DNA of 64,000 bases from Leucosporidium creatinivorum (lineage: Eukaryota > Basidiomycota > Microbotryomycetes > Leucosporidiales > Leucosporidiaceae), in assembly GCA_001600635.1 (NCBI GenBank), contig BCKL01000016.1, positions 176,449 through 240,448 of the forward strand, given 5' to 3'. The notes under the pieces were generated by a model. The model ran no database searches. It saw nothing but the letters and a program-made list of their open reading frames with translations, and had not been told where the DNA came from. A program made the position numbers and the translations under genes. Each line of letters begins with the position of its first letter. The first letter of the stretch is position 1. Below, one piece after another: positions 30,647-59,494 of the stretch.

Positions 30647-31141
30647 GGATACGACCCCGAGTCCAAGGAGCTCGATGCCGACACGCTCCAATCGTACATC
30701 TACGGTGGACACATCGCCGAGTACGTGGAGTCGCTCGAGGAGGAGGATGACGAGCGCTTCAAGAGTGCGTGGCCTCGAACTTGACCTTCGCCGAACTCGG
30801 CGCTGACTCCCTTTTGCTTTTCCATCGCCTTGCAGAGCAGTTCTCGACCTACCTTGCCGACGACATCGGATCCGAGGACCTTGAGGACCTCTACAAGGAG
30901 GCTCACGCCAAGATCCGCGAGTCGCCCGAGGCTCAGCTCACCGACAACGCCGATCTTGCCAAGTGGAAGGAGGCGTCGAAGAAGACCCACCCCAAGAAGC
31001 TTACGTACGCTCTCCTGTCCCTTTCTCGTCCGCAGATAGCTCGAACTTACCCTCCCACCTCGCAGTCTCGCCGAGCGCCGCCAGCGCATCGAGGAGAAGA
31101 AGGCTGCCTGGGCCGCCAAGCGCGATGCCGCCGACGAGTAA
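30647..31141 (+). pseudogene. Duplicated 3' half of RPL5 (5'-truncated)
   Basis: From [20 protein letters not shown] to the terminal KRDAADE and TAA (31139-31141) this matches the last three exons of the intact RPL5 on the minus strand at 58289-59494, in inverted orientation. Introns are copied too, which rules out an mRNA-derived copy. Similarity starts abruptly at 30647, inside what is an exon in the parent, so promoter, start codon and the first part of the protein are missing. Differences are few: VESLEE for MESLEE, NADLAKW for KADLAKW, and a handful of intron changes. The frame is still open, consistent with recent duplication or ongoing sequence exchange with the parent. Confidence 0.9.
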
Positions 31142-32369
31142 TCGTCTCCTGTATCGTGTGCTTTGCTTTGCANGGGTTCTGGGAAATACACAGTGCGTTG
31201 NGTTTCCCGGGAATGCCAGCTCTTTTGTCGTACCACTACAAACAGAGTCGACGAGCCCGGCGAACTGGAGGGAGCTGTTCGACGTCGAAAGGAGAGGTGC
31301 GGCTGCTCTACTTCGCGCCTCGCTCAAACAGAAGCTCGGAGTCGACGCTAAGCCGGGGCCGAGATGCTCGACAGACCGAGTTCTCGCTCCAAGCAGCTCT
31401 GCCGTCCCCGACCTAAACCCCCCTCGCTAAAGCTCGGAGAGGGAGGGCTTTGTTTCCTTGAAATATCANGGTTCTTTGCAGGTACGAAATGGTTAACGAC
31501 GTACCCGAACGTAAGATGATAACTCTCGAGCTCCAAGTGAGCGCGCCCATGCTCAGCGAACGGNTTGAAGGGACTGACCGAGCGAGCTGCTCCTTGGCGA
31601 CGCTCTCTGAGCTGTCGCTCCTTGCGCAAGGCTTCTGCTGGCTTCATATCGCCAGGGAGGGTAGTCGTGTACTTTATAAAGCCACCTCAAAGCTCAAGTA
31701 CACCGCAGAACCGCTTGCTGCATCTCGAGAGCGGCTTGAGCTAAATCGGGGGTCCGAGCGTCAGGCCAAGACGAGCTCGCCTGTAGCTCAGCTGCAGCTC
31801 GGTTTCGCCTCTTTCCCTCCTACCACATCTTGCTCAGCCTTGGCGGAGCGCTCTAGCTCTCATGACAAGGCCTGTGCTGCTCTCCTACAGCGTTCTAATG
31901 TTCTCCCTCCCCCTTCCCGCTCCCCCCTTGCCTCTACCCCTTCGTCTCGCTTCTCCAATCACTCTGTTAGCTTCCTAGCAGTACTGATACCCCCACATAC
32001 CACCCTACACCTGCCCTCCCTCGCCACACGCCTCCCTCTCAGTCAACCCGAGCACGAGCGCCTACTTGTGAGGAGGACGACTGCTCTACCCACGGTCCTC
32101 GAGCTAGAACACGGTCAGTGTCGCGCGGCTATGTTTTCAGGCAGCCTCAGTGCGTAAGCCCGGCCTCTTCCCCCACCCCGCTAGCTCACATAGAGGACCA
32201 AGGGCGTCAGACCGACTGGGGGATGAAAATCGAGTGGAGCCCGAGGAGTCGCCGAGCCGAGCTTGGACAGCATCTGTAGCTGCTCAGGTTTGGCTTGGTT
32301 GAGTGTGCAGGTCTTGCTTAGCTTCTTGTTTAGCTTACTACCACGCCGCAAGGCTACCAAACACAACTG

Positions 32370-32393
32370 GGCGGCTCACTTCGGTGAGTCGCC
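32370..32393 (+). repeat. UUCG-type hairpin in left repeat arm
   Basis: Ten-base arms GGCGGCTCAC and GTGAGTCGCC enclose TTCG. In RNA this is a ten-pair stem (one G-U) closed by the very stable C(UUCG)G tetraloop. The same structure is conserved at 57039-57062 in the right arm. Confidence 0.8.
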
Positions 32394-32639
32394 CGCAGAA
32401 ACCGGTCGCCGAAACAGGGTGAGCCCATGAAATCGGTCGCGAGGGCTATCTCTCGAATGAAGGGGGTTGGGCGTACGAGGAGAATGCCGAGTTCATCAGT
32501 AGCTATTGTCGACCCGACGTGAGCTTACAGCGAGACCAAGGCAGCCCTCTTCGCCGAGCTCTTCGGGGTCAGTCTCCCTCGGTCGAAGAGGCTTGAGGCG
32601 GGAAATCGAGGTCTGCAAGTAAGCACCGAGTCTGCTAGC

Positions 32640-32730
32640 ACCTGTATATCTCCCAACAACCTCCATCCCACCCCACTCAAGCACACGGAACAGCTTCTCA
32701 TCACCGAACCTGTCATCCTCAAGGCTCGTC
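32640..32730 (-). pseudogene. Fragment related to the gene remnant at 52131-52855
   Basis: On the minus strand the block DRFGDEKLFRVLEWGGMEVV parallels DKFGDQKQFRVLEWGGMEVL at the end of the remnant at 52131-52855. Here it runs on without the stop and loses similarity on both sides. It is a short relic of the same family, just inside the left edge of the bracketed segment and next to the end of the chitin synthase gene. Confidence 0.6.
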
Positions 32731-32901
32731 TCTGACTCTCTCGAGCTCAGCGCCTGGAAACGACGACCATGCGACAGAGTTGCAAAGGCTAAGACAGGAG
32801 AAAGGTGTGATGTACTCAACAAAGTGTCCAGTGATCGAACGTGATCGGCTGTAGGATGATCTAAAGTGTCTGTGCTGCTCGTTCTCTCCTTCCGCTCTCT
32901 C

Positions 32902-35900
32902 CTACAGTCTGCCCTGCAGCACGCCGTCAATCATGCTGTTTATGGCATCCTTCCTTGGTGCGAGGTCGGCCATAGGGAAGCACTGGTTCTGCAGTCCATC
33001 GCGCGCCGTGCGTTTTCTGCAGAAGGAGAGGGGAGGTCAGCTCGGCGCGACTGGGAAGCAAGAAAGAAGCGAGCTCACGTCACCGTCATGAGGTCCTGCG
33101 ATGCGAGGTAGGCCCTGTAGGTGTAAGGTCGAAGTCAGTGGCGTTCTGGGCAGCGAGAACAGCAGCGAGCACGTACTTGAGAGCGACGACGATCTCCTCA
33201 TCCGTCGGCGAAGTGCTCTGGCTCGGCTGAGGCGGCTGGAACGCTCCCATGCTGTAGACGCTGGCACCTCCTCCGAAGCCTCCGTAGCTGAGGCCGCTCA
33301 TATTGGACGCCCTCCGATTGCCCATGCCGCCCATCGGTGGTGGCGGTCCGCCGAGCATCGAAGCGCTGCTCCCGGGGTGGCCGCCGAGCGACATTTGACT
33401 CTGCAGGGTCGGCATGAAGCCACCGCCGTAAGAGCCCGAATGAGGAGGCGCTCCGCCGCCGTAGCCACCGAAGTCGGATCCTCGAATGGAAGGTGCACCG
33501 CCGTAAGCGCTGGGAGGAGCGCCGCCGTAGCCGAACTGTGAGCCGCCGGTCGGTGGTCCTCCACCAAAGGCGAGGGTCGACTTGGATGCCGAGCGAGAGT
33601 GGACTGTATCGCGGTAGTAGTCGGCGCCACCGTGGTAAGAGCCGGGAGGTAGCTTGGTGGCGAGGGAGAAGCCGGCGGTGGACTGAGTCTTGCCCGAACG
33701 GTAGGAGCGGCCATCATCGAAGGGGTCCTCGGCGTCGAGACGAGCTTGGTACCTGCAAGTAGAAGATGTTAGCTGAGTCGCATGAGCAGCTAGAGAGCAG
33801 GACATACTCGGCGAATTTGGCCATGGGGATGGACGACTCGTCGAAAGCCTCCTCCTCGGCTTGCAGGACCTTCTTGGACTTGCCCTCGCCAACGACGACT
33901 CGAGTGTTTCCCCATGAAAAGCTGTGGGTTGCGCGCGAGGTCAGCAGAGCGAGCGAGGCAGCCTCGGCAAGGGCTACTCACTCGTCGAAGCGCCAGAAAC
34001 TGTAAAGAGGCAGCAGGAAGCTGTAGACCGGGTAGGCGAGGAGGTAGATGATGAGCCATCCGATGAACTGCCATTGACGCTTGAGGAGGAAGATGACGCA
34101 TTGCAGTCCGTAGGTCTGTTGAGCGGCGAGAGTGAAGCGAGGTCAGTACCGGCCGAGAAACGAGACAAGTTGCTATACGCACGGCTGCCAGCATAACGAG
34201 AGCGATGGTAGGAATGGCGGACTTTCCGGTGGCGACCTCAACGATGAGGTAGATCTGTTGCGAAGCGAGCAGACAGTCAGCCCGGCGCTCAGAGAAAAGG
34301 CAGCGAAACCGACTGCGTACAAGGTAGACGAAGGTAGCAGGCAAGATCAGAGTACCGATGAGATCGATCATGACGAAGAAGCGCATCGAAAAGCAGCAGA
34401 AGCCACACATGTCGGGAAGGAACATGAGCTCGGCGAGGTTGTGCACTGTCGAGTTGATCCAGCGACGACGTTGCGAGAGGAGAATGCTCCAAGAGTTGGG
34501 GGCGACCGTCATGGCTTGCGCTTCAGCGAGGAACTTGGTCTTGAAGTTGGGGAAGTGCTTGAGGATGAGAGTGGTAAGGTAGCGATCCTCTCCAAGCGCG
34601 AGCAGGTTCTTCTTGTGCAGCGTGTCGAGGACTCCCTGTGGGTATGGAAGCAGACGATTAGCTCGTGTCGCGTGGGAGGACAGAAAAGGGTCAAGCTTAC
34701 GTCTGAGTACTCATCAACCACGAGGGAGCTGACCAGGAGCGGCTTGCCCTTGTCGGCCGTGCGCAGGCGGTACATGGTGAAGCTGGACGGGTACGGAAGC
34801 GTCAGCGATGTCATCACGAACCTCGAGATCCTTCAACGCACCACCCAGGTAAGCAAGTGACGGAACCGAACATGCTCTCGAACGCCTTGGCCATGTGATG
34901 CGAGATGAAGTACTCGTAGACTGCGCATCGAGGTAGGGTCAGCTATGAGCCAGCAAGACGGTGAAGCATCGCACGCACCCTGAATCATCGTCCACCAAGA
35001 CTCGTTCTCGTTCTCGAGTTTCGTCTCTCCGCAAATGCCGATGATCTTGGAGTCGTCCGTGCAAGCCGAGATGAGGCGGTTGAGCGAGTCGTGAGCGACA
35101 CTAGTATCGGCGTCAATCACCAGCATGTACTGTTGAGCGACGCACGTCAGCGAGTGAGCGCAAGCAGGAGAAGCAGCGCCGAGACTCACCTCGTAAAGTT
35201 GAGGGTCGACACCGATGACGTTCTTGATCTGGTGGTACATCTCAAGCTCGAGAGGGTACATCTCGCTGTCGAAATGGACGCGGTTGAGGAAGCGCATCGA
35301 GAGAATCTGCGAGTCTCGCTTTCCACGGTTGCCGGGACGAGAGCGCTCGGAGGGGCGGCCGACCTTGGCGATGACAATGTCTGTAGAGGAGGAGAGGTCA
35401 GCTATGTTGAGGGTGTGGGACAGCGAGCACGACGAACAGGGAACGACGTCTGCGAAGCGAAAAGAGTCAGTTTGTCGACCGAGACGGATGGCAGCTCAGC
35501 ACCGACTCACGTCCTTCAATCTCGTACAATCCTGACCAGACCTTGCCGTAGTTGAGCTGCTTGGAGCCTTCAGCGATTGACTTGAACATGAGAGGGTCGG
35601 GGTCCACGTCCTGGTCGACGCCAAGGATGTCGAGGACGATGCGAGGCGTCGCCTTGTCGTTGCCCGAGCCGATAATCATGCCGTCGCAGATGATCATGAG
35701 GAGCTTGCGCTTGTCGTCGTAGGTGAGTGTAGCGAGCGAGTCGATGGTCTTGCGGAGGGATTCCTCGCCTTCGGTGTAGCAGGGGACTTGGCCTGAGTGA
35801 AAGAACGAGGGTCAGCTCCGAGTCGTCGACGAGGCGAGATCGCAAAGACGTACAGATGACGAACTTGTCCCGAAGCTCGGGCATACGCTTGGATCCAAAC

Positions 35901-38900
35901 TGGAGCGCAGCAAGGAACTTGGCGAGGATGGTGACCATGAGGAGGATGGAGAAGCCGAGCAGCATGTTGGGCTGGACTTGACACCTCGGCGTCAGGCGGA
36001 AGTCGGTCTCTCCCTGAGCGAAGATCGTCTTGATGCAGTCCATGTTGGTGTTGTAGGTCGTCTGATCCATGTCGAGGTCCTTGATGGCGCTCGTGATGTC
36101 GGTTCCCGGCTGAGCTTGCCAGAGAGCGGCGAGGTTGGTGTCGAGGAACTCGTACGAGGCGTCGTTGAGCAGGTTGATCTGGTGGGCGTCGAGGGTTAGC
36201 GCCGACGAGAAAAGAAGCACCAAGAGGGGCGACCAACCGTGTAGAAGTAGTCGGTCAAATCGTAGACCTTGCTGTCGACGATAGCGTTGAGCCTCGAGTT
36301 GCTCTCCGCCTCGGTCTTGAGCTTCTTGTTGCTCCACACGAGAGGTCCCTTCTTGTAGTTCTCCATCTTGGGGAGGAACGTCGCCGTGTACCAGTCCTCG
36401 TTGTGGAGCTCGCTGCCGGTGAAGGCTTGGGCGCTTCCCGACGTGTGGACGGCGGCTGAGAGGGCGAACGGTCAGCTATAGAAGCGAGGCTCGAAGGATA
36501 CAGCGAGAGCTCACTAGGAACCTCGGCGGTAAAGTTCTGCGAGAAGGGGAGAAGAGTTAGCGCAGCTCAAGAGGAGGCGACCGAAGCGACTCACGGCGTA
36601 TTGGAGCGCCAAGCTGGTCGACGTGACGAGGCTGGGGCAGGCGGTGGTGAGGGGACTATCGAGAAGAGATGTCAGTGAAAGGAGGAGTTGAAGGGCGAGC
36701 GGGGAGCGTACATGGGGAAATAGCCAGTCAAGTCAAGTCCGGCGAGTTCGAGCATGTCCGATGAGGTGACTTCTTGTGCGGTGATGTCGGAGTGTCTGCG
36801 TGAGAGGGAAGGAGGGTCAGCGCTGATCTAGCCGCGAGAAGGAGAAGCCGGGCTCACTGGATCTTGTAGAATTTGGTCAGGTCGTAGACGACGCCGCGAA
36901 CCGAGACCCAGTAGTCGTTGCCGCCGGTGTGGTAGCCGACCTCCTTGTCGTTCCAAGCGTTGTTCATGTTGGGACAGAGGAGCTTGCCGAAAACGACGAT
37001 GTCTGCGAGAGAGGAAGCGCCGAGTGAGCTTCGGCTCTCGGCGAGCGAGGGGGAGAGGAGAGCCGGGGACCTACAGAAGATGACGATTCCACAGAAGAAG
37101 CCGATGAGCATGCACAACGCGACCTGTAGCGGCGAAGCAAGGTCAGCCTCGATTCTACTCCTCAACGCAAGCCTCAACTCACCTTCTCCCTCCAAGCCAT
37201 CCTCACATCCGGCCTCTTCATCCTCCCCAAATGCGTCAAGCAAACGCTGGGGCACCAGAACGTCAAACACCACACCATCGCGACCCAAAACCTCCTCCCC
37301 CTCGAACTAGCGACCTCCTCGACAGTCGCTCCCTCCGTCTCCTGCGGTACACCAGCAGCATCCAACACTCCCTCCTTATGATGCCTAGGTGGTCCCCGAC
37401 CGAACCCTCCTGCCCCGCCCATGCCGAACCCTCCCTTCTCGGCGTTGGTATCGTCGCCTCGGCCCCACACGTCGCTCTGCATCGACGAGGGCTGAATGTA
37501 GGGAGCCGGGGCCGAGAGCGAGTCGTGTTGTCCTCCAAAGCCGTAGCCATGCGTATGCCCGCCTCGAGGCGAGTCGGGGCCGCCGTAAGCGTAGGGCGAG
37601 TAAGGCTGGGGCTGGCCGTCGCCGCCGCGGTTGAGAAGGTCGTCCACGCTATCCGATCCGCCGTGGCCGTAGCCATAGCTCGGTTGACCACCGAGATCTC
37701 CTCCGCCCCATCCTCCAGCGAACGTCGACCTCGAGATCGAAGGACCGAGATGAGGGAGGTCGAGTCCCGCGGTCGCTCCAGGCGAAGCAGGCGTCGGATT
37801 GTCGCCCGAGACGTTCTTGGCCAACGCGGCTTGACGATGATCCGCCGGTTCGTCCGCCCTCAGACGATCTTCGATGATCTTCCAAGCGCGGTACGAGAGC
37901 CAGACTCGTTGATTCCCCGCGGCGTAGTCGGTCGGCTGGACGAGTTTGAACTCGTCCATGTAGGCCTCGACAGCCTGCTTGGCCGCTGGAACTCCATGTC
38001 GATCCGAGAAGGTCTCGTAGTCGAGGTCTTGGATAAAGTCGATCTTCTTGCGCGCGACGAGTTCGGGGAGGAGGAATTGCGAGACTTGGGCGCGAAGGCG
38101 TTTGGTGTCGAGTTGACCTGGGTTCAGGGTGTCGTTTGGGCGGAGGGAGAGGAGGTTCCAGACGCGGGTGCGGTCGATGAGGTTGAGGAGCTGGGAGACG
38201 GTGGCGTTGAGTTGAGAGGAGACGGGATGGATCTCGAGAGGGTCGAGGAGGGGGACGGTGGGGTCCGTCTGCTCGGTGTCGGCAGGGGTGTGGGAGGAGG
38301 CAGGCTTGATGGGAGAAGCGCGACGGAGGGGTTGGGAGGAGACCTGAGCGGCGACAATGATGTTGTCGTCCAAAGGGTGGACTTCGGCGGCGAGGGAAGG
38401 GCCCGAGAAGAGCTTGGCGATGAAGCCGTCGTCCGAGGCGCGAAGGAGGGCGACAAACTCGGGATCCAGAGCATCGAGATCCTGCTCGATAAAGCCGTTG
38501 CCGTCGTAGGTGACTGATCCCCCAAAGTGCGAAATGCCGAACGCCGACCTCGCTCCCGGTCCTCCAGGCGCAGGAATGAAGGCCGTATGAGCGCCGAAAT
38601 GGTCCTTCATCCCGCGCAAGAGCTCCTCGTCGGCCTCCTCGGTCGACAACCCCTTCCTCACGCTCCCGCACGTCTTGCTCAACCCGCCGAGGATCCCTCC
38701 AGGCTTCCTATCCGCCTTGCCTCCCACCCGTCCACCTCGCAGCAGCTCGATCCTCGCACTCCCATCAGGCGGCACAACGTCGGCCAACCTCACTCCATCC
38801 TCCTGCGCCCTCGCCGCCGTTCCCTCGTCGCCATCAAACTCCCTCTCGGAGGTCCAAAACCTGACCAACTCGGCCGCGTAATTGTTGACAAACTCGTCAA

Positions 38901-40485
38901 ACCCATTCATCGCGCGGACGAGCATGCCCGACCCCGGTCGGTCGATGGAGCGGGAGAAGAAGCCCGGTTGATCGAGTTGGAGGATGGAGGAGCCGCCTTG
39001 CTCCTGCAGCGTGGCGATGGCTTCGTCGCCGGGGAAGATCTTGTGGTTGGCCGTCTCGACGACAAAGGCGAAGAGGATGGAGTAGAGGGCGGACATGAGG
39101 CCATCGCGTTGCTTGTCGGCGCCTTCGGCTTTGAGAATGACGGCGACCATCTCCTTGCGGACCCATCGGACTTGGTTGGTGAGGGCGCGCTCGAGGTCAT
39201 CGGAAGTAGTGCCGAGGAGACCTGCGGCCTTGTCGAGGATCTCGCGGTTGGTGACCCATGCTGGTTGGTCCTGGTAGTCGGGGTGATCGGGGTGGTCGCC
39301 GAATTCGAGGTTGCCGAGGACGAGGATGGCCGAGAGGAGACGGAAGATGCTCGAGACGTGACGAGGCTTGAAGCCTAAGATCTTCATCGCCGCTCGAAGG
39401 TCCTCGAAGGCGATCGAGTCGTCCGAGTTGGCGACGCCGGGAGGGAGGCGGTAGGTCGCCGAGGTAGCGAGGAGGCGGTAGTCGGTAATGTCGTCGAAGA
39501 GCTCAAGCTGCTCCCTTTCCTCCTTGGTAGCGCCAGCGAGGAGCTGGTAGAAGGCGTGGAAGGTCCTCTCCTCCCTCGCGAGCCGGCGAACGCGGTTCTT
39601 GTCGAGACCGAAGGCGAGGACTTTGGCGCCGGCGAGACGGCCAGTCTGGTTGAAGTGGAGTTCGAGGAGGGTGGAATGACGAGTGGCGGACGGGTTGAGA
39701 GTGGTTTTGGCGCAGCCGAAGGAGGAGAGGAGGGTTTGGAGCGCGACGACTTGGTCGGCGATCCGAGCATCCTTCTTGCCCGAAGTGGAGAGGCGGAGGA
39801 TTTGGGCGGTGAAGATTTGGTGCTGAGTGGAGGATCCTGCTCCCGAGAGGCCGCTGTGGAGGTGCAAGATAATTTGAGCGTCAGCCTACAGAGTTTCTTG
39901 GGATGCGGTGCGCTGCGAGGGTCGCCAAACAACGGAGCTCCCGTCGCTTCAGTGAGACAGCCAGCCGAAGCGGCTGCAGCGGGAGCTGTATGTAACATGC
40001 TCCTCTGAAGCGCTAAAGCTCCCGCCCTTTCAAAACCTCCCGTTCGCTCCCTCCCGAGCTCCAGCGAACGGACGTGCAACCGTGCTCCGCCCTCGCACTA
40101 GCTATCGACCTGCAGAGCGAGCAACTCACCTAAAGACAACACTCTGAGTCTGCCCACTCCTCCTCATGACCAAATAGACCCTACACGCCAACTCATAGGC
40201 ATGAGGTTGAACCTCTTCACCCCCCTTGCCCTCGCGTCTCGTGTAGGCCCTATCCTCAAACTCCCCTTTACTCGCTTCACTAACATCTCCCAACACCTTC
40301 AGAGGATTGATGACGATGAGGTTTGAATCGCCAATGTAGGTGGCAGTGAGGTCGTGGCGGTACCGTTGGGTGAGTAGGGAGACGACCGCGTCGGGGGAAG
40401 GGATTGAGACGGTTGCTGGGTCGTTGGAAGAGGGCAGTAAGGATGTCAAGTTGTAGGTCGTTACTGGGTCGTTGGAAGGCGCCAT
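32902..40485 (-). CDS. Chitin synthase with myosin-motor-like domain (class V/VII type)
   Basis: A protein of about 1,850-1,900 residues that polymerises N-acetylglucosamine from UDP-GlcNAc into chitin at the plasma membrane. The start [18 protein letters not shown] (40485) opens a myosin-head-like domain. Its P-loop reads [13 protein letters not shown], lacking the lysine of GESGAGKT, and the switch II region is LDQPGFF, so ATP hydrolysis is doubtful. After a glycine/proline-rich linker come membrane helices ([16 protein letters not shown]), a cytochrome b5-like segment ([17 protein letters not shown]), then the chitin synthase core: [46 protein letters not shown] and [13 protein letters not shown]. 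Further C-terminal helices and a glycine-rich tail end in a DEK_C-type domain ([20 protein letters not shown]) with TAG at 32902-32904. The first intron is about 275 bases, much longer than the rest. Confidence 0.93.
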
Positions 40486-41129
40486 CGTGCTGCTGCTGTC
40501 GTGGCGTCGCTGCTGCTCGTTCGTCGAGGGCCCTCGCGCGGCTCGTAAGTCAAGTGAGAGCTGTGGCAGTCCACCTGTAGCTCTGTAGTCGGCTGTCGTA
40601 AGCTGAACGAGTCGTTTACTGCTGCTGCTGCTTGCTGCCGAGCGAGTTGAAGCGGAGCTGGCGATTTGGAGGAGGACAAGCTGCGAGTCGCTCGTCGCGG
40701 TTGAAGCAGACGGGCAAGGGGGGCCAACTTCTCCAGAGGGTTTGAGCTCTCGGCGTAGGTGTGTGCTAGCGATCGCTTCAGACCAGACAAGCTTTCCCGC
40801 GGTACGATACATGCAACTCACCTCTTCGCTCACGACGAAGGCCGAGGGTGAGCTTCGCAGGCCTCTCGTTGGTTGAGTGCAGCTACAGCTCGGTGGAGGC
40901 TGAAGAGCTGCAGAGGTGTATTTTGAGTGTTTTTCAATGCGCTTATTGAGCTACAAGTACTTCCGCGCTTTCCCCAACGAGCGACGCCTCAACAACCCAT
41001 CGCCGAGCCTCTCCCTCCAACGTCTCTGTTCTCTCTCGCTCGTGGCTCTCACCCGCGGTCCAGCTCAACAAATACATATCTTCATAACACATTCTCCCGC
41101 TTTGCCCTTCTCCTCGTCTCCTATACCCC
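40486..41129. other. Spacer of about 640 bases
   Basis: 5' region of the chitin synthase gene and 3' flank of the RhoGAP gene. CTG/CAG-rich patches occur near 40615-40640. The frame upstream of 40485 is open but shows no better start or conserved sequence. Confidence 0.45.
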
Positions 41130-47473: not shown

Positions 47474-47833
47474 AGGGAGGAGGGACTTAGCATACATAGA
47501 CACTGCGGCATGGTAGGGGATGGGTAATGAGCTCGCACTCGTTCTCTAGCATCGTCTCTCGAGAAAAGCGAGCGTAATGGCGAGTTCGGCGATGAGCTCT
47601 TCGGCCGAGCTGCATCCTTGCAAAGCCTCGAGATAGCTCGCAAGCCCTTGAAGTGACCTCCAAGGCCTCACAGTCGCATACAGACCTCCCTTCTCCGACT
47701 CGATCTGCAGCTCGACTGCCCGACGACCACGCCGAATCGCCCTCGCTCGCCTCTTGGCCCTCGCCTTACTCGTCGTCTATCCCTCGTCTCTCACTCCGCC
47801 CCTCACGCTCGGCCACCGGACTACTACCATTGA
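47474..47833. other. Spacer of 360 bases
   Basis: 3' flank of the protease gene and promoter of the cytochrome b561 gene. No other feature is seen. Confidence 0.45.
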
Positions 47834-49085
47834 ATGACAGCTTCACCCACTGCCAGCACTCAGCAGCCCGATCTCAACGACGACGAGCGCACCCCGCTCC
47901 TTCCTGGTCCCTCCACCTCAGCCGTCTCAAGCCTTCAAGATCTCTCGACAGAGCAGGAGGGGGATATGATCAAAACTAGCTCCTACCTCAAGCAGAGTCT
48001 GTTCAGCAATACAGCGGGCGGGTTGGCTCAAGTACGTTCAATTCTTGGGCAACTCGAGACGCGTGGTGCTGGGAAGCTGATTCTCTGGAATCTCAGGTGG
48101 GCTTGCTCGTAGCTATGCTGCAGCTTTGGTGGGTGCTCTACAGACATCCTGCTGGTGAGTACTATCCCATTTCGTCGCCTTGTGATTCGAAGCCCGAAGC
48201 GCGTGGTGCTGACCAACTTGCGATCCTGTACCATCTGTCTCTACCACATCCTCCCTGATTCATCTGCATCGAACGACGTCTCGCTGCTCGCGCGCAGGTC
48301 TCTTCTCGTGGCATCCGGCGCTCCAGAGCTGGGCCATCATCGGTTTCGCCGAGGGTGTCCTGCTTCTCCAACCGCCGCCGAAGAACCAGGCCGTCAAGCA
48401 GAAGGGGCTTGCGCTTCACCAGATCTTCCAGCTGACGGCGCTGCCCGGTGAGCTGTCGTCGGCAAGGAGCTGGGCTTCGGCGAAGAGCTGACCCATTCGG
48501 CGCTCGTTTAGTGATCCTCGCCGGCGCGTTCATCATCATCTACAACAAGATCTTACACGGGGCTAAGCACTTCACGACTTGGCATGCCGTTTTTGGCCTC
48601 GTCGTAAGTTCTTCTTTGCCTTGCCGAGCTGTTTCCCTCGTAGAGCTGACGCCCTCTCACATGCAGACCCTCGCCTTGATCCTCATCCAAATCCTCTTCG
48701 GCGCCTTCGTCGTCTACTCGCCCTTGACCAAGCTGTTCGGCGGCGATTCCCAAGCCAAGGCGTTGTGGAAGTACCATCGGTCCGGCTTGTCTTTCTCCCT
48801 CTCTCCTCTGCATCACTGACACGCTCAAACTCCACAGCTTCACCGGATACCTCACCCTCTCCCTCCTCTTCATCACCCCGCTCCTCGCGCTCGACTCGGA
48901 TTGGGTCCACGGTAACTCGACCTTCGCCGAGAGAGCTGTCATTGGTTCGGGGCTGGGCGTGACGGCCGTGGGCGTGCTTACGAGGATTAGGTGCGCCCTC
49001 TCTCAATTTCGGGTCGGAAAGCAAGAGCTGAGAGCTGAAAAGCCTCTTCCGCAGCCTCGGAAAGCTCGGCGTGAGGAGGAGCTGA
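47834..49085 (+). CDS. Cytochrome b561-domain membrane protein
   Basis: About 270 residues. A hydrophilic start (MTASPTASTQQPDLNDDERTP) precedes six helices of the cytochrome b561 fold. The four haem-ligand histidines appear at the expected places: FSWHPALQSW, GLALHQIFQ, TTWHAVFGLV and KALWKYHR. Helices include VILAGAFIIIYNKI, LALILIQILFGAFVVYSP and YLTLSLLFITPLLAL. The family moves electrons across membranes, often from ascorbate or to reduce iron(III) (family knowledge); the fungal electron donor is not known from sequence. A final small exon adds LGKLGVRRS with TGA at 49083-49085. About seven exons are read. Confidence 0.82.
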
Positions 49086-49405
49086 GCTCGGCGTGAAGGA
49101 GAGCGGGACGTGCTGGTCGGACAGCGATACGAGATACTGTACATAGGACCTTGAGCTTAGTCAAGAGAAACGCAAGAATAGCAGCTGCATCTCTGTTGCC
49201 GTTTCGTCGCCTCAGCTCTTCTTCGCTTCGCCAGCTCGCTTCGGCGTTGCTTCGCCAGCTCGCTTCGGCGGTGCTTCGCCGGGCTCGCAGGCGAGCAAAG
49301 AGCATCGAGAGTCAAGCCTGTCGTATCACAGGCATCCTCGTATCAAATCACTCTGCCTTCCTTGGCTAAGCAAACAAGCTAAAGTACTCGTCGTCCTCCG
49401 CCTTC
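49086..49405. other. Convergent spacer of 320 bases
   Basis: Lies between two convergent genes. Contains a local direct repeat of a CTTCGCCAGCTCGCTTCGGCG-like unit near 49225-49285 (three imperfect copies). No gene. Confidence 0.5.
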
Positions 49406-51988
49406 CTAAGCTCGGCCAACCCTCTTCGCCGAGCCGGCGAGGGAGAGCTGGATTGGCTCGGGCTCCTTGGCGGTCGAGCTGCGGCCGTTGGCGGTGTGAG
49501 GCCAGTCGGAAGCCTGGTAGATCTGTAGGCGTGTGAAGGAAGAGGTCAGCAAGCGGGGCTCGAACCTCGGCAACTCACCATGTCATCCCAATTCAAGACC
49601 TTGCGACTCCAAGAGCGATCGCACGACGTGGCCTTGCAGACGAATTTCGTCCCTTTCTCGTAGAGGTCGTCGTGCGTCGTCGTCTCGGCGGAGAGCTGGT
49701 TCGCCTCGAGAAGCGATTCGACGGCCTTCCTCCACTCCAAAGCGGCTGACAGGGACTCCTCGCAGTCGGTGTAGCAGATATGATCGAAGACCTCGATGTA
49801 CATGAGCAAGCACTTGCATCCGCTGCACTCGAGAACGTTGACGGCGAGGGCGAGCTGGGTTTCCATCTCCGCTTCGGTCGGCGCTTGATCGGAGGAACAG
49901 TCGACGTCGGGGAAGAAAGCTAGGTAGCACTCCTTCCTGGTGGGTTTGGTGTGCTCCCCAATCTCGTCGAGGATGGAGGGCAGTGTGGCCGCCCACGTGC
50001 TGGCGTTGAGAGGCGCGTCGTCCGACTCCCAGAACGGCCGGACCGAAGGGAGCTCGAAGATGACAGCACTTTTGGGGAGCATCGCCTCGTTGAAGCGAGT
50101 CTGCATCGTCTTGAGCTGCCTGAGGTAGGCCTTGAGGGCGTCCTTGCGCCTATCTTGACGGTCGGCGAGCTCGCGCTGGAGACGGGCCGTCTTGTTGCTC
50201 TTGATCGTGGGGTAGAGGGCCGGCCAGACCTTCGTCTTGAAGTCTGTTGGAGATTGGAGATAAAGATGGGTGAGCGGTTCCCCGGTGAGATGTGAGAGTA
50301 CTGACCAGCGTCGGTGAGCTCCTCGGCCTTTTCAACCTGAGCGAGCGCCGCTTCGGGGAGGTCGTACCAGTCGAAGCTGCAATGACGGTAAGGCGTTAGT
50401 ACAGGGGTCGAAGCAGAAGATAGTGACGAAGGCTCACTCGTGGTAAGAGTAGCCTGCGGCGAGTAGCTTCGTCTCGATGCTGGAGAGTGGAGCGAGCGCC
50501 GAGTCAGTCGCTCGTCTTCAAAATGGAGTAAAGGGGACGTACACATTCTTGCGCTCTTCAAAAATCTCGTTTGTACGCTCAATTTCCCTCTCGAGGGCTT
50601 TCGATTGCCAGTTGAAGATGGTCAAGGCGTCTTGTGAGCGTGAGAAAGCAGCAGAAGCAGCAGGGGGGCGTCAGCCGAGGCGATGAAACAACTCACAGCG
50701 TTAATGGCCTTGACCCTCGATTTCTGCTCGCGCACGAAGGCCTCCAGCACCGTCTCGTCGCGTCCGCCTTCGGCCTGCTTCACCTGCTCCGAGTCCTCGG
50801 CGAGAGCGATGGCAGCGACATGCTCCTCGAGCTCGACGAGCTTGTCGCTCATCTTCAAGACGTCGAGGTAGTGGAAGTAGACTGCGAAAAGGTGCAGCGT
50901 CCGATGGACGAAGCGGTCAGCTCCAGAAGGAAACGACAACCAGCGCCGAGCAGCTGGGCTGCTGGCTCACACTGCCTATCGTCGCGACGATCGCCAGTGG
51001 TAGGCTCGTCTGTGCATCGAGCGAGGTTGAGCTCAAATAGCTAGTCCGATGTTCACCCTGCACTTACAAGGAGTGAAGGGCAAGCATTTGAAGGTCTCGG
51101 GATGGAACTTGACGCGCGCTCTCGCTTCGGCGGTCTGCTCGAGGACGAGGCTGTTGATAGGGAGGACAGTCAGCAATCGAAAATATTTGCGCAATGCTAG
51201 CAAGATGACAAACTTCTTCTTGAGGCACTTCAGGCAGAGACGAAGTTGCAGGTTGTGCTCGAACTCGGGCGAATCCTTGCTGGGGCAGAGCTGGCGAAGG
51301 AGGGCGGGGCTCAGCGCCGAACTTGCTCATATCTCCTTCCAGGCGAGCTGAGCTTACCTGGCACTCCTGGCCAAACGCGAGGAAGGCGTAGAATCACTCG
51401 GAGATGCCACTCTTGAGCTGAGGCAGCTTGACGACTCGGCGAGCGACGACCCAGACGGGCTCGGAAGCTTTGGACTGGAGGTAGCCTTTGAGTGTTTTAC
51501 AGCTGAGGGAGAGGGCGAGGAGCGACGCCGGGTCGAGGTACTTGCAGGTCTGTTCGGTGAGGCGCCGCGTCGGTCAGCTCTCGTGGTCCCCTCGGGCTTG
51601 TGCGCCGAGCAATCTCTGCTCTTCCTTCAAGTCTGTCCTGCTCATACTCACCTCGTAAAGCAAGTCTGTAGGGAACGACAAGATCGGGCACGCTCCGTCC
51701 TTGTCAATAGACGCTCGGGCCCCCTTCCCTCCCTTGGCGCTCGTCTTGCGCGCCTTCTTGGCGGGCTGAGGAGCAGCTGTGAAGGTGCAGAGAGTGTGAG
51801 CAGGTGTTCAGAGGTACACCGAAGTTCGGCAGCTGTCTACCCACCTTCCTCCGAGCTCTGCACCCTCCGCCTGCGCTGCCGACCAAGCTCTCCCAAGACG
51901 GGATTTTCTGCTTCGAAGTAGCTTGCTGAGGCTGAGGCTGAGGCTGCGAGTCGTCGGTTTTACCTGGACGAGTACGAGTGGCTACCAT
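49406..51988 (-). CDS. F-box protein with zinc-binding cysteine block; in-frame TGA
   Basis: A gene of about 650 codons starting MVATRTRPGKTDDSQPQPQ. A basic leader (PAKKARKTSAKGGKG) precedes an F-box (ILSFPTDLLYET, then DPASLLALSLSCKTLK), which should dock to Skp1 in an SCF ubiquitin ligase. Next come QLCPSKDSPEFE and RLCLKCLKKKF, a cysteine block typical of large basidiomycete F-box families, then coiled-coil regions (LEEHVAAIALAED, VREQKSRVKAINA) and a cysteine-containing end (VLECSGCKCLLMY, CKATSCDRSW). It closes with AGSAKRVGRA and TAG at 49406-49408. One codon at 51394-51396 reads TGA between GISE and FYAFLAFGQECQ, where relatives have a continuous chain. Either this copy is broken, the base is a sequencing error, or splicing avoids it. 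All downstream exons remain open. Confidence 0.6.
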
Positions 51989-52130
51989 GTTGAACGATAG
52001 CTTTCGGAACTTGGAGCCGAAGCGATCGAAGCAAGTTGAAGTAGGAAGCGAAGAGGGCTCGTCTCTTGCTTTCCTACCTAATCTTGCTCGGCTGAGCTCA
52101 CTCGACTTGCTTCGACTCTGTGCACTCTGA

Positions 52131-52855
52131 GGGGAGGCAAGCCCGTCGTCTACCTCTTCCTTCCCTCGGCGCTCTCCTCCGTCCAAGTCAACCTCACCCT
52201 CGTCCCCGAGTGGACCTTCTCGGCGCTGTACCCTCACTCGGACATCACTCGCAGCAAGGATGGAAGCTCGCCGACATCGCGGACAGTCAGCGCTTCGCCC
52301 GATGGCACCCTCGTTGACAAGGCTGCGTCGCTCTCCCTCTCCCACCTGTTCTGGGAGGCGCACGCTCCTTCTCTTCCTCCTTCTCCGCCTCTCCTCCCCT
52401 CCGACGCGCCTCTCGCCTTACCCTCCTCCACCTTCAACCCCGGCCGACCTTCGCTCGACCGCTTGAACGGCGTCGTCCTGCCCTTCACCTCCTTCCTCTC
52501 TCATCTCGACCAGGCTCTCACCTTCCTCTCCCTTCACACCGCCGCCCGCACCGACTTTATCACCTACTGGCTCCCCTCCTTCATCCGCATCCACGAGCGA
52601 GGCCAGCAAATCGCCTTCCGCTTCCTTGAGCAGTCGGCGTACGAGCAGGCGGCGAAGTTGGAGGTCGAGCCCACGCCGGATATCATTACGAGGGTGTTCC
52701 TGCTGTTCAAGGGAGTCAAGGAGGAGGAGAGTGAGGGACGGAGAAACGTCGAAGAGGTCGATTGGGCGAATGAAGTCGGCGTTGAGCAGGACAAGTTCGG
52801 CGATCAGAAGCAGTTCCGCGTGCTCGAGTGGGGTGGCATGGAAGTGCTCGCCTGA
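52131..52855 (+). pseudogene. 5'-truncated gene remnant, fungal family of unknown function
   Basis: An open reading frame without a start begins at an acceptor-like CTCTGAG before RGGKPVVYLFLPSALSSVQV and runs through PEWTFSALYPHSDI, SLSLSHLFWEAHAP, LHTAARTDFITYWLP, RIHERGQQIAFRFLEQ and EPTPDIITRVFLLFKG to FRVLEWGGMEVLA with TGA at 52853-52855. Upstream there is an in-frame stop and then the divergent F-box gene, so the 5' exons are gone. The tryptophan-rich, well-formed text shows it was a real gene; I do not know its function, though it belongs to a repeated family because a second relic lies at 32640-32730. Confidence 0.6.
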
Positions 52856-53152
52856 GGACTAGTTATTTATCCCCTAGTAGCTCACTATGAAAGCCAAGCC
52901 GTGCTGTTCATTATGCAGGAGACGGGCTGAGATTTGCCCGCCGCGAGCTTCGCCGAGAAAGGGGCGTGAGGCTTCCGCAAGCCGCAGAGCTCAGCCGAGC
53001 ACGTACTCTGCTGACCCCAACCTTTTACACTACGAGTCGCTCTCCCTGTCTACGGTTACTCGCCCTAACCTCGCGCTTGGGTGCGGATCGCTGCTCTCCC
53101 TCCTCCTCGAGTCGACTCTGCTTCTTCTCTCCTCTCTCAGCACGCGCTCTCG

Positions 53153-54526
53153 ATGGAAACGGATCAAGTAGTGCTCCGACGCGCTACGCAAGCACAGTTC
53201 GACCAAGGTATCGTCAATCAGCTCGAGCAATGGGGAGGGGGGCTGAGCTTGGAGCTGTTCCAGCAGCGGGAGGACCTGCTAAGGAAGACGGGCATGGGCC
53301 AGGAGCTCACAGCATGGTACGGTCAACATCCTGCTGCTCTTCAGCACCTGCTGCAGCTGCGCAAAGCCGAGCAGAGCAGAGCGAACTGAGCTAACTCGCT
53401 TGCTTGCAGGGTCCTACTGCCTTCGTCGGCACCCGAGGATACGCTGGACTTTTTATGCTCCGTCCGAACCTACGGCCGACCAGTCTACTACCGCCCCGCC
53501 TCATCGCCTTGTTCCCCTTCGACGCCCACTCCCGCTTCCGCCGAGCATCTCCTTCCTTCCGATCTCAACGCCAACATCCCGACTATACTCCAAGCCACAG
53601 CTTACAGCATTGCAGCCGTCTTCACGCCCGCCAAGAACCGCGGGAAGGGCTACGCGCAGAAGATGATGGAGCTCCTGCACGCCGAGATCCGGACGACTGG
53701 AGAGGACGCCGCGCTGCTGGAAGACGAAGAGGGAGCAGATGGCAGACCGCTGGAAGCGTGGAAGGGAGGCAAGGACGGAGTCCTCAGCTTCCTTTACTCC
53801 GACGTGGGCGACTTCTACGCTCGCGCGAAGGACGAGAGGACCGGTCGAGGCTGGCGCGTTCAGGGTACAACGACGACCACCTGGGATCTCTCCACCTCAC
53901 TGCTCCCTCCCCGCCATACTCCGACTACATCTCCACTACCTCCGTCTGGCTTCAAAACATCCCTCATCACCTCCGCTGACCTCGCCTCAATCGCCCTCGC
54001 CGACGCTCAACTCCTTCGAACCTCGCTTACCACCGCCTCGCCATCACACAAGACGCGCTTCGTCGTTGAACCCACAGCATCCTCATTCGAGTGGTCGACT
54101 ACTCGCTCCGCACACGCATTCGCCGCTCGTGGACTCACAACGCCGAAGGTCTGGGGCTTCCAGCTTCAGGGAGCGGCTGAGGAAGGCCATCCTACAGATC
54201 AAGATTGGAGCTATATCCTCCTCGTCATGGACCCAAAGCTCAAAGTCGTCAAGCTCCTCCGTCTGCGCCTAGCTTCGACCTCGGCGCAGGTGCTCGTCGC
54301 CGGCCACGCTCCGTACCTCCTTCAAGCCGCGGGTGAGCTCGCTCGTTCGCACGGGATGGAACAGCTGTTGGGCTGGAACGTACCCTCGGCGGCGCTGAAT
54401 GAGCTGGGAGACGAGGACAAGGGAGTGACTGCCGAGAGGGAGGGGAATCTGAGTGCTGTGGCGTGGTATGGCGAGGGCGACGGCGAGGTGGAGTGGTCAC
54501 ATAACGAGTCGTTTGCATGGTGCTAG
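53153..54526 (+). CDS. LYC1-like lysine N6-acetyltransferase (GNAT fold)
   Basis: About 430 residues in two exons. Exon 1 starts METDQVVLRRATQAQ and ends inside the tryptophan of ELTAW at a GTACGG donor; exon 2 resumes VLLPSSAPEDTLDF. The acetyl-CoA-binding core is visible as YSIAAVFTPAKNRGKGYAQKMMELL (V-x-P-x-x-R-G-x-G-x-A), followed by SFLYSDVGDFYAR, the strand and tyrosine region seen in Yarrowia LYC1. The C-terminal half (FEWSTTRSAHAFAARGL, WGFQLQG, LLRLRLAS) fits the extra LYC1-type domain. The enzyme acetylates lysine to open a lysine-degradation route (family knowledge). The stop is TAG at 54524-54526. Confidence 0.75.
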
Positions 54527-54819
54527 ACAGAGGGTGCCAGACTGTTCATGGAACTAAATTACAGGTGGATCAAGGTCGGGAGAGGGGGTCCTCTCGGCTT
54601 CTCGTGAGCTGCCAGCAAAGTGTTCTCTTTCCTTCCTGCTCTATTGCAGAGCTTAGTTTGCTGCACTCTGCACCCGTTTCGACAGCGCCCTCGACGCGCC
54701 GGCGAAGCCAAACGGTTGATCGCGACTCTCGCCTCTGCTCCGCAAACCTCACCTCGCTTCTATTCTCTCGACTCGCCAGAGCACCTTACGCCCACACGGC
54801 AACCACACTCGTTCTTATC

Positions 54820-56598
54820 ATGCGCCGTCGCTCTGCACCCCTCGCCGTCGCGGCTCTAGCGCTAGCAGCCTCCATTCCTGCCTTCGCGCAGGTCACTCCC
54901 ACTGCTCCTGGACCAGGCGACTCGTATCGAGTTGGCGGCAGCTGTATCGCTGAATGGGATCTCGACACTACCGGGGCGAGTCACGCCTGCTGCACGAGAG
55001 CGGTCTGGTGTTGTCTAGACGCGCTCTCGGACGAGGAATGCGCGAGCTGACGCTGTTGTATTGCAGACCTGGGACAGCTTTGACATTCATCTAATGTCGG
55101 GTTCAAATTTGGCGATGGTGAGTTGGGTCCTTGTACAGTCGAACGAACTCCTGATACCTACATTCGCTCAACAGACCGTTGTAACTCGAGTCGCCGATTC
55201 AATGTTAGCCTCGTTGCCCTCTTTTCGACCTGCCTCGTTGGCTAACCACGAACAAATCGCATACAGGGATGGAACCTCGGGCGTTGGAACGTACACCTTC
55301 ACCTGCCCTGCCGTCACGCCCAACTCGGCGATCTACTTCCTTCGTTCGTCGCGCTCTGTTTCGTTGGTTCTGCCTCGGTCTGACCCACTCTCATGCAGAG
55401 TTCACGCAAGATGGAGCTGATCCTCAGTGGACCACTCGCTTCACCATCGCTTCGTCTACCGGCGCCGTGAGTGGTGCTCGGCGATCGCTAAGGGAGCCTT
55501 GCTGACCATAATCTTCCATCGGCAGACCACGACACCCACCGAGTCAACTCAGGCGGATGGCTCGGCTATCCCCTGGGGCAACGGCGAGCTAGCAGACGGC
55601 ACTGTCGCCTCAACCGTCTCGGGCGCCCTCTCGGTGACCCCAAGCTCGTCCAGCTCGTCCTCAAACTCTACAACGCGCATGGTCACTTCCACCTCTTCCT
55701 CATCCTCGGCGAGCAAGACGAGCAGCACCAAGGCGGCCAGCAAGACGAGTAGCGCAACCAAGAGCACCTCGACGGCTGCTCAAGCGAGCACCAAGATGTT
55801 CTACGATTCTTGGCCTCTCGGAGGCGTCAGTCTACTTCTACGGCTTCGAGCTCGTTCTCCGAGCTGCGCTGATACTCAATCGTGTCTCTACCACAGAAAA
55901 TCGGACTTCTCGCCGGAGTCATCGTCGCCGGACTCGTCATCCTCTGCATCCTCTTCTTCTTCTGCATTCGCCTCATCCGCCGCGGCAAGAGCAATCGCCG
56001 CATGAAGAAGTCAGGCGCCATCGCCCTCTCCTCACCCTCGCAAGCCGCCCTCACCAAGTCCTCCGACGACGACGGGCTCGATTTCAAGGACGAGCAGGAC
56101 TCTTACTACAAGCCCTCGAACGAGTCCATGGCAGATCTACATGCTGCGGGAGGTCGCGGTCCCTACGTCGCTCCCGGCCAGGCCTTCACTCACAACCAGG
56201 CGCCGGCGTACAACGACGATGGCAAGCTCCGTCGCGAGTCGGTTTGGGTCGCGCCCGAGGAGAACCGAGCGGGCATGGGAGTTGGATCAGGTCGAGGAGC
56301 CAGTCCTTGGAGGCGCCCCTCCCCCGAACTCGTCGGAGGGTTCCAAGCACCCACCTTCGACGCTCGTTACTCCCCTCACTCCGAGCCCCGAGGCGCGACG
56401 GGCGCCGAGGGCTACCCTCTCATCCCTCCTGCAGCGGGACACAGGCCAATGTCAGCGACCGAGGTCGATGGATATACGCCTACCGGATCGGCGTCGCACG
56501 AAGGAGGGTATCAGGGTGGCTATCAGTGGTCGACGCAGGTTCGAGATGCTCAGCAGGCGGAGAGCGATTGGATTGAGGCGCACCAGGGGAAGAGGTAG
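54820..56598 (+). CDS. Kre9/Knh1-domain single-pass membrane protein
   Basis: About 450 residues in eight exons. A signal peptide (APLAVAALALAASIPAFA) is followed by the Kre9/Knh1 N-terminal domain, read over several small exons: PGDSYRVGGSCIAEWDLD, TWDSFDIHLMSGSNLAM, GTYTFTCPAVTPNSAIYFL and WTTRFTIAS, all hallmark strands of the domain. A long serine/threonine stalk (SSSSSSSNSTTR, KTSSTKAASKTSS) suits heavy O-mannosylation. One membrane helix (KIGLLAGVIVAGLVILCILF) is followed by a basic stop (RRGKSNRRMKK) and a roughly 200-residue cytosolic tail rich in Gly, Pro and Tyr. The stop is TAG at 56596-56598. The build suggests a cell-wall sensor or wall-assembly protein, unlike soluble Kre9. Small exons and splices are well supported by GTGAGT/GTACGT donors. 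Confidence 0.8.
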
Positions 56599-56969
56599 TG
56601 ATACGTTGTTAGCTGGTAGGAGTGTACTAGTAGCTAAGTTATCGTTATCTTCTTCGACCATGATCGACGTGAGGTGGCGCGGCAGTCGCCGTCGGAATCG
56701 GCTGCCTTGATGGCGAAGGCCACGAGCAGCTCCTACGCACAGCCGGGGAGGTCGGGTCAGTCGGACAGGAACGGCGAGATAATTGAGTTTGAGAGTGAAG
56801 GCTGTTGGCTGCAGCCGAAGACGAAGTGCAGTGACCACCGCGGACGGATGAGAGAAAGCTCGGCGATGGCCAACTCGCGCTGGAGAAGCGAGAACCCTCA
56901 TCTATAGCCTTGCAGCGGGTCGATAAGAGCTACTGAGATCTTCGGTACTATACTCGTATGCTCAGCACC
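56599..56969. other. Spacer left of the right repeat arm
   Basis: 3' flank of the Kre9/Knh1-domain gene. Faint similarity to the sequence just beyond the left repeat arm may continue for about 20-30 bases at its right end. No gene. Confidence 0.4.
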
Positions 56970-58784
56970 CTACATTCGCGGGATAGCCCTCGCGACCGAC
57001 TTCATGGGCCCACCCTGTTTCGGCGACCGGTTTTTGCCGGCGACTCACCGAAGTGAGCCGCCCAGTTGTGTTTGGTAGCCTTGGGGCTGGTGGTAGTAAA
57101 CAAGACAAGGTAAGCAAGACCTGCACACTCAACCAAGCCAAACCTGAGCAGCTACAGATGCTGTCCAAGCTCGGCTCGGCGACTCCTCGGGCTCCACTTG
57201 ATTCTCATCCCCCAGTCGGTCTGACGCCCTGGTCCTCTATGTGAGCTAGCGGGGTGGGGGAAGAGGCAGGGCTTACCCACTGAGGCTGCCTGAAAACATA
57301 GCCGCGCGACACTGACCGTGTTCTAGCTCGAGGACCGTGAGTAGAGCAGTCGTCCTCCTCACAAGGAGGCGCTCGTGCTCGGGTTGACTGAGAGGGAGGC
57401 GTGTGGCGAGGGAGGGCAGGTGNAGGGTGGTATGTGGGGGTATCAGTACTGNTAGGAAGCTAACAGAGTGATTGGAGAAGCGAGACGAAGGGGTAGAGGC
57501 AAGGGGGGAGCGGGAAGGGGGAGGGAGAACATTAGAACGCTGNNGGAGAGCAGCACAGGCCTTGTCATGAGAGCTAGAGCGCTCCGCCAAGGCTGAGCAA
57601 GATGTGGTAGGAGGGAAAGAGGCGAAACCGAGCTGCAGCTGAGCTACAGGCGAGCTCGTCTTGGCCTGACGCTCGGACCCCCGNTTTAGCTCAAGCCGCT
57701 CTCGAGATGCAGCAAGCGGTTCTGCGGTGTACTTGAGCNTTGAGGTGGCNTTATAAAGTACACGACTACCCTCCCTGGCGATATGAAGCCAGCAGAAGCC
57801 TTGCGCAAGGAGCGACAGCTCAGAGAGCGTCGCCAAGGAGCAGCTCGCTCGGTCAGTCCCTTCAANCCGTTCGCTGAGCATGGGCGCGCTCACTTGGAGC
57901 TCGAGAGTTATCATCTTACGTTCGGGTACGTCGTTAACCATTTCGTACCTGCAAAGAACCNTGATATTTCAAGGAAACAAAGCCCTCCCTCTCCGAGCTT
58001 TAGCGAGGGGGGTTTAGGTCGGGGACGGCAGAGCTGCTTGGAGCGAGAACTCGGTCTGTCGAGCATCTCGGCCCCGGCTTAGCGTCGACTCCGAGCTTCT
58101 GTTTGAGCGAGGCGCGAAGTAGAGCAGCCGCACCTCTCCTTTCGACGTCGAACAGCTCCCTCCAGTTCGCCGGGCTCGTCGACTCTGTTTGTAGTGGTAC
58201 GACAAAAGAGCTGGCATTCCCGGGAAACNCAACGCACTGTGTATTTCCCAGAACCCNTGCAAAGCAAAGCACACGATACAGGAGACGATTACTCGTCGGC
58301 GGCATCGCGCTTGGCGGCCCAGGCAGCCTTCTTCTCCTCGATGCGCTGGCGGCGCTCGGCGAGACTGCGAGGTGGGAGGGTAAGTTCGAGCTACCTGCGG
58401 ACGAGAAAGGAACAGGAGAGCGTACGTAAGCTTCTTGGGGTGGGTCTTCTTCGACGCCTCCTTCCACTTGGCAAGATCGGCCTTGTCGGTGAGCTGAGCC
58501 TCGGGCGACTCGCGGATCTTGGCGTGAGCCTCCTTGTAGAGGTCCTCGAGGTCCTCGGATCCGATGTCGTCGGCAAGGTAGGTCGAGAACTGCTCTGCAA
58601 GGCGATGGAAAAGCGAAAGGGAGTCAGCGGCCGAGTTCGGCGAAGGTCAAGTCCGAGGCTACGCACTCTTGAAGCGCTCGTCATCCTCCTCCTCGAGCGA
58701 CTCCATGTACTCGGCGATGTGTCCACCGTAGATGTACGATTGGAGCGTGTCGGCATCGAGCTCCTTGGACTCGGGGTCGTATCC
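56970..58784 (-). repeat. Right arm of the 1.8 kb inverted repeat
   Basis: Reverse complement of 30647-32460. It begins within an exon of the intact RPL5 gene (58784) and extends about 1.3 kb past the RPL5 stop. At least ten undetermined positions occur (for example 57423, 57452, 57543-57544, 57684, 57739, 57750, 57866, 57961, 58229, 58257), four of them at exactly the same sites as in the left arm. Because the parent gene is complete only here, this arm is the likely source. Confidence 0.92.
57039..57062 (-). repeat. UUCG-type hairpin in right repeat arm
   Basis: Same ten-pair stem as at 32370-32393. Read in the RPL5 sense direction (minus strand) the loop is C(UUCG)G. It lies about 1.2 kb past the RPL5 stop, next to the repeat edge. 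Confidence 0.8.
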
Positions 58785-59494
58785 GGGGAAGCGACCCTCC
58801 GAGTGGGGAACGAAGATTCCTCCATCCGAAGCTCCCTTCATGGCACCAAAGATACGGGCACCAGTCGAGGTGCGGTGAAGTCCAACATCGAGGAAGGCCT
58901 TGAAGGGGCGGGGTCCCTCATCGTTGGCCTCGGTGAGCTGGAGAGTGCCATCGGGCTCGGTCTGTCCCTCGTAGGTGTCGGCGAGGCCGAGCTTGGTAAG
59001 GGCACGGCGGGCAACGAGGAGTCCGGTAGCGTAGGCGGCGGCCCAGTTGGTAAGACCGTTGTTGATGCCGTAGCGGGGGAGCTCGTGAGAGTAGGCGGCG
59101 GTGAGGACAAAGTCTCCCTGGAGCTTGGCGGAGACGATCTGTGGCGGCAGGAAAGGTCAATATGATGTCCTGGAGCTGTTTAGTAGGGTGGTAATTACTT
59201 GGCAGATAATGTCCTTGTTGGTGATGCGGACGACAAGACGGTACTTGGGGGAGTTGTACTTGTTCTTGGCCTGAGCGACGAGACGCTTGCGAGCGTAGTA
59301 GTCGGTCTTGCCCTCTGTATTCCAGTGATGAGGAGAGGGAGGTGGCGAGGCGAGGAGGATCGGAGAAGGGAGGGATCGAATCAGCTCCGAAATCAATCAC
59401 AACAAGCTGCAGACGACTGACCTCGGCGACGACGGTACTTCACCTGGTACCTCGAGAAGTACGCGTCGTTCTTCACGGTCTTAACAAAAGGCAT
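58289..59494 (-). CDS. RPL5: Large-subunit ribosomal protein L5 (uL18)
   Basis: A component of the 60S subunit that binds 5S rRNA in the central protuberance. It starts [20 protein letters not shown], the near-invariant eukaryotic L5 N-terminus, then [99 protein letters not shown] and a lysine-rich end (KKTHPKKLT, then [14 protein letters not shown]) closing with KRDAADE and TAA at 58289-58291. About 297 residues, the normal eukaryotic length, in six exons. The first intron comes early, as is common for fungal ribosomal protein genes. Its 3' half lies inside the inverted repeat and is duplicated at 30647-31141. The last 500 bases may therefore undergo gene conversion. Confidence 0.97.

Follow-up and report, generated by a model that had tools for sequence, protein, structure and literature searches.

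Two long, closely similar inverted arms bracket a gene-bearing segment of about 24 kb in the window, that is, the whole 64,000-nt stretch of DNA analysed here (coordinates without prefix refer to it, and C16 denotes its own contig). Does this segment flip, and how did such a repeat arise? The material analysed was one draft assembly of one strain. When the window was compared with itself by BLASTN, a single long inverted pair was found, 30647-32516 versus 58784-56916 (1,874 columns, 97.28% identity, 42 mismatches including N sites, 9 gap columns). The E value of 0 excludes a chance match, and the inverted repeat is real. A repeat search recovered the arms as four ungapped pieces (99%, 98%, 92% and 87% complementary), and global alignment gave 34 substitutions, 13 gap columns and 11 N columns. 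A first-pass annotation had described arms at 30647-32460 and 56970-58784 with few substitutions, position sums of 89430-89432 and an enclosed segment of 24.5 kb. The pair itself and the position sums were reproduced. Identity does drop at 32460/56970, but the match runs about 55 bp further inward, to 32516/56916, at lower identity, and the final 172 bases at this inner edge hold 19 substitutions and 2 gap columns. The enclosed length was about right, the corrected edges giving 24,399 bp. Substitutions are indeed few, but 11 N sites in 31037-32062 perhaps mask further differences.

30647-32516, plus strand: left arm of the inverted repeat (BLASTN, repeat search, alignments)
56916-58784, minus strand: right arm of the inverted repeat (BLASTN, repeat search, alignments)
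32517-56915, no strand: enclosed segment, 24,399 bp, with Pfam matches to ordinary genes
about 33.8-41 kb, minus strand: chitin synthase and myosin-motor matches (Pfam)
46.1 kb, plus strand: aspartyl protease match (Pfam)
53.4-54.5 kb, plus strand: LYC1-like acetyltransferase match (Pfam)

The arms are thus long, highly similar, inverted and placed on either side of gene-bearing DNA, as in a flip-flop region. The Pfam scan covered 20 enclosed open frames, picked from the ORF list with longer ones first; five exceeded the family cut-off and one more fell just below it. The chitin synthase and myosin motor domains are adjacent (about 33793-40950, minus strand) and perhaps belong to one fused gene. 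Two smaller repeats were also noticed: a further inverted pair on the contig (C16:425300-425760 and 428370-428831, 462 columns, 95.7% identical), and two direct repeat pieces at 239-598 and 4004-4349 of the window (79% and 86%), perhaps parts of related genes.

Towards their outer edges both arms carry sequence of RPL5, the gene for ribosomal protein uL18. The intact gene extends across the right arm's outer edge, and the left arm holds a truncated copy.

58289-59494, minus strand: intact RPL5 (uL18), 301 aa, straddling the right arm's outer edge
30647-31141, plus strand: truncated RPL5 3' copy with the end of exon 3 and exons 4 and 5, without the 5' half (alignments, protein search)
31142-31579, plus strand: RPL5 downstream spacer, with genome matches at the two arms only

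The five exons of the intact gene, with edges set by hand, lie at 59494-59422, 59314-59199, 59138-58667, 58594-58426 and 58364-58289. The best matches of the predicted protein are 60S L5 proteins of the PDB (best E=9.7e-128), and exon 3 matches PF17144 (E=1.8e-48). The left copy differs from the gene by 8 substitutions and 1 gap over 30647-31036; its frame is open from 30392 and contains no in-frame ATG. A protein search of the genome matched RPL5 at three sites, each on C16: only the right arm covers the complete protein, the left arm covers residues 181-301, and C16:245928-246355 covers residues 1-85. The last of these, a 5' fragment at C16:245897-246352, has 94% DNA identity to 59530-59076 of the window, with one base different in the first intron and several changes in the first two exons, and it adjoins another copy, near 244 kb, of the repeat described below. 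Small bits of RPL5 are also seen at C16:242087-242234. On C1, a weak match of 54 columns (81%) beside a repeat copy (L012:4305-4357) appeared under lax settings only and was absent from the protein search.

The inner half of the arms is a dispersed non-coding repeat of about 0.86 kb.

31580-32440, plus strand: left-arm repeat copy (genome searches, copy comparison)
56992-57850, minus strand: right-arm repeat copy (genome searches, copy comparison)

The left arm and its flanks gave 22 genome matches: the RPL5 part hit just the two arms and the bits at 242.1 kb, and the part from about 31580 onward was matched at at least 17 loci: nine on C16 (six on the plus strand, three on the minus), four on C1, two on C14 and one each on C63 and C22. 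Queries with the C22, C14 and C1 copies returned the identical 17 loci. The arms are therefore two of nine C16 copies of a dispersed repeat and do not form a dedicated pair. Across all 17 copies, core identity was 90-98% within C16, 93-94% within C1 and 82-87% between C16 and C1, while the C22 copy had only 58-62% core identity to the others. This higher likeness within contigs is the pattern that local homogenisation would give. A coding gene in the repeat was considered and rejected: no conserved frame was found, and in five copy pairs substitutions were spread nearly evenly over codon positions and most indels were not multiples of three. Separately, two other repeat copies have neighbouring stretches, C16:358036-358757 and C16:400496-401217, with about 83% similarity, in inverted orientation, to 52133-52854 of the window.

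The left arm was compared with each of the other eight C16 copies in five blocks from 30647 to 32720. Against the right arm, identities were 921/929 on the RPL5 side (30647-31579), 119/119 at the repeat start (31580-31700), 716/731 in the core (31701-32440), 58/76 in the fourth block (between 32440 and 32517) and 80/198, or 40%, in the last (32517-32720). The 99% likeness of the outer block and the perfect repeat start come from one strain, and the middle of the arms is masked by Ns. Against the 244-kb copy, the same blocks gave 295/861, 81/120, 688/737, 59/76 and 168/204.

32517-32720, no strand: left-arm inner-side flank, 82% identical to the C16 locus at 244 kb and 40% to the right arm

In this last block the left arm is 76%, 74% and 75% identical to the copies at 301, 357 and 399 kb, and 46%, 39% and 49% to those at 255, 279 and 313 kb; the first block shows that unrelated sequence reaches a baseline of 31-41% when aligned in this way. 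The left arm is a mosaic: its RPL5 side follows the right arm (99-100%) and its inner flank follows another repeat locus. As judged from the block identities to the right arm and to the 244-kb copy, the closest partner switches within or just past the repeat. The core by itself points to no single partner, because there the 255-kb copy (723/739) matches the left arm no less closely than the right arm does.

We propose, with a probability of about 0.6, that the inverted repeat was born of non-allelic homologous recombination between dispersed repeat copies, which brought the end of RPL5 from the right site to the left. One repeat copy, at the left, would have recombined with another that lies, at the right, just downstream of RPL5. 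Copying would then have left the repeat, crossed the spacer, entered RPL5 exon 3 and ended there, so that the left site acquired a truncated RPL5 end. Both this direction and the type of exchange, ectopic gene conversion or break-induced copying, are inferred. The model is supported by the left-arm mosaic, by the spacer being present only at the two arms, by the repeat being present at 17 loci and by whole RPL5 being present only at the right arm. It is further supported by the greater likeness of copies on the same contig than of C16 and C1 copies, and by the other RPL5 pieces nearby, namely the 94% identical 5' fragment and the bits at 242.1 kb. The boundary of the tract cannot be placed because Ns mask differences in the middle kilobase. 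These observations suggest how pieces of an essential gene can be spread by a small dispersed non-coding repeat next to it, with long inverted repeats left behind.

The 5' piece at 246 kb is also compatible with an older whole duplicate of RPL5 that was later broken, the left arm being its 3' end. In this improbable alternative, an entire block of RPL5 plus repeat was duplicated and then broken in exon 3, so that the left arm now holds the 3' half and C16:246 kb the 5' half. The two pieces, which correspond to 59530-59076 and to 58784 onward, share their orientation and together span the gene bar 291 bp. Their divergence is however unequal (94% identity for the 5' piece versus about 98-99% for the left arm), and the inner flank of the left arm is unlike that of the right arm, although later gene conversion could blur both differences.

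The window contains 17 N letters, 15 of which lie inside the arms. In the global alignment, all four left-arm Ns stand opposite right-arm Ns at matching places, and seven further right-arm Ns stand opposite a letter.

31037-32062, no strand: substitution-free stretch between the arms, 11 N sites in 1,026 bp (global alignment), probably in part an assembler merge

Substitutions number 8 in the 390 bp preceding this stretch and 7 in the 282 bp following it. Within it there is no letter-to-letter difference but 11 Ns, so real differences may be hidden. A 264-kb portion of C16 contains 35 short N-runs, each one or two bases long, plus two longer gaps, and 34 of the 35 short runs fall within repeated sequence. 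Fourteen are in the arms and 17 are single Ns in an 800-bp stretch (C16:266948-267747) with 97-98% copies on C27 and C10; one is in a stretch having a 99% copy on C13, and two sit at one and the same position of the 357- and 399-kb loci (89% overall likeness), within an 81-base context shared without difference. For the sole exception, at 380111, the assembly offers no second copy. Our reading of the short Ns is that merging of similar copies left these bases open. Merging of similar copies is described in general terms in the available parts of the Pilon paper (PMC4237348) and of PMC9731477, whose authors state there that such arms are usually merged in short-read assemblies. The perfect middle of the arms is thus probably in part an assembly merge, as far as the pattern of Ns can tell, which is a warning that perfect identity within such arms can have this source. 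A rival reading is an assembly artefact in which one of the arms, or the middle of it, is not real in its assembled form. The paired Ns, the 1,026 bp with 11 N sites and zero substitutions, the concentration of short N-runs in repeats and a 190-N gap inside the 301-kb repeat copy all point in that direction. It is nevertheless very unlikely, given that all 34 inter-arm substitutions lie outside the middle and that each arm has separate flanks, the left inner flank being matched at other loci as well. For these reasons both arm loci are likely real, with merging confined to the middle bases.

What the repeat itself might be was approached through its secondary structure.

32369-32394, plus strand: hairpin GGGCGGCUCAC-UUCG-GUGAGUCGCCC, kept in the 15 copies counted

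The count covered 15 of the 17 copies, leaving out the right-arm copy and the gapped 301-kb copy. In these 15 copies, 99.0% of the cells are paired and two pairs show a double change, values each reached by 1 of 500 shuffles; slid along the alignment, the hairpin paired at 31-50%. In the right arm (57038-57063) the outermost pair, invariant in the 15 counted copies, is broken. Both double changes are located in the C22 copy, and further pair types were no better than in shuffles (336/500). Two repeat copies folded no better than shuffles (z of -1.23 and -1.00), and the covariation term of RNAalifold was only -0.36. By eye, a second, long-range helix can be made out, apparently weaker in the copies of C14 and C63, and the core combines strongly conserved blocks with the lack of a conserved frame. 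A tRNA or a known RNA family was also considered, and neither was found. Rfam gave 0 matches at gathering score in the window; when four loci (L001, L009, L013 and L016) were searched at E values of up to 5, the single hit was a weak sR53 match lying beyond the repeat. A literature search found no report of a multicopy RNA of this kind in basidiomycetes, which is weak evidence of absence. We advance as a tentative reading, with the odds against it, that the repeat, presumably transcribed, is a hitherto undescribed, lineage-specific family of structured RNA genes at 17 loci, with clusters on a few contigs homogenised within themselves. Its copies would serve as recombination nodes, shuffling the ends of neighbouring genes such as RPL5 and perhaps flipping the segments between them.

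As to flipping, a crossover between the arms could possibly invert the 24.4 kb. RPL5 would then remain whole in either orientation, as the first-pass annotation had proposed, because the right arm contains neither exon 1 nor exon 2 and lacks 354 of exon 3's 472 bases. An exchange within the shared gene part could import into RPL5 the two amino-acid changes of the left copy. The proposed role of the arms as a substrate for homologous recombination is plausible by analogy with Saccharomyces cerevisiae (PMC9731477, as partly available), but their identity is partly masked by Ns. When the single assembly was searched for a second orientation, no further contig was found with any of the four arm flanks (outer and inner, left and right); at other sites, the inner-right query gave a match through its final 92 bases alone, which are the repeat. 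A mating-type locus was considered on C16 and rejected as unsupported by a search with PF02076 and PF05920, which gave two STE3 (PF02076) matches on C25 and one Homeobox_KN (PF05920) match on C24, and on this account no mating-type role is seen on C16. No report of the locus was recognised in the literature searched. That recombination between the arms inverts the segment recurrently, both orientations existing in the species as on Saccharomyces chromosome XIV, is rated as doubtful. The left-arm mosaic shows past recombination among repeat copies and agrees with it. Weighing on the other side are the lack of an extra contig with the arm flanks (though both forms would rarely appear in an assembly), the single strain, the absence of anything seen that orientation would switch, and arms that are shorter than those of Saccharomyces and partly masked in their identity.

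The nearest precedent is the flip/flop region of S. cerevisiae chromosome XIV, in which, according to the available part of PMC9731477, 4.2-kb arms of 97.6% identity enclose 24 kb. Its size and arm identity resemble the present case (a segment of about 24 kb, inverted arms about 97% identical) and speak for flipping here. The authors suggest that the Saccharomyces arms are homogenised by gene conversion, sometimes resolved as a crossover that causes inversion, and by this analogy the same arm conversion and crossover would be expected here in principle. In Saccharomyces, unlike here, both orientations are found in long-read assemblies of many strains; its arms hold two genes each, which are sporulation-specific, whereas those described here are 1.87 kb long and consist of a gene fragment and a dispersed repeat. 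The MAT inversion of Hansenula (Ogataea) polymorpha, as presented in the accessible text of PMC4238957 and PMC5720833, switches mating type; its arms measure 2,049 bp (PMC4238957). Arm length is similar, and the C-terminal half of SLA2 at its second locus (PMC4238957) resembles the gene fragment seen here, both of which again favour a flip-flop region; the mating-type role, in contrast, has no counterpart seen on C16. If both orientations occur in isolates, this locus would be a further fungal nuclear flip-flop region, with an arm make-up unlike either of these two cases.
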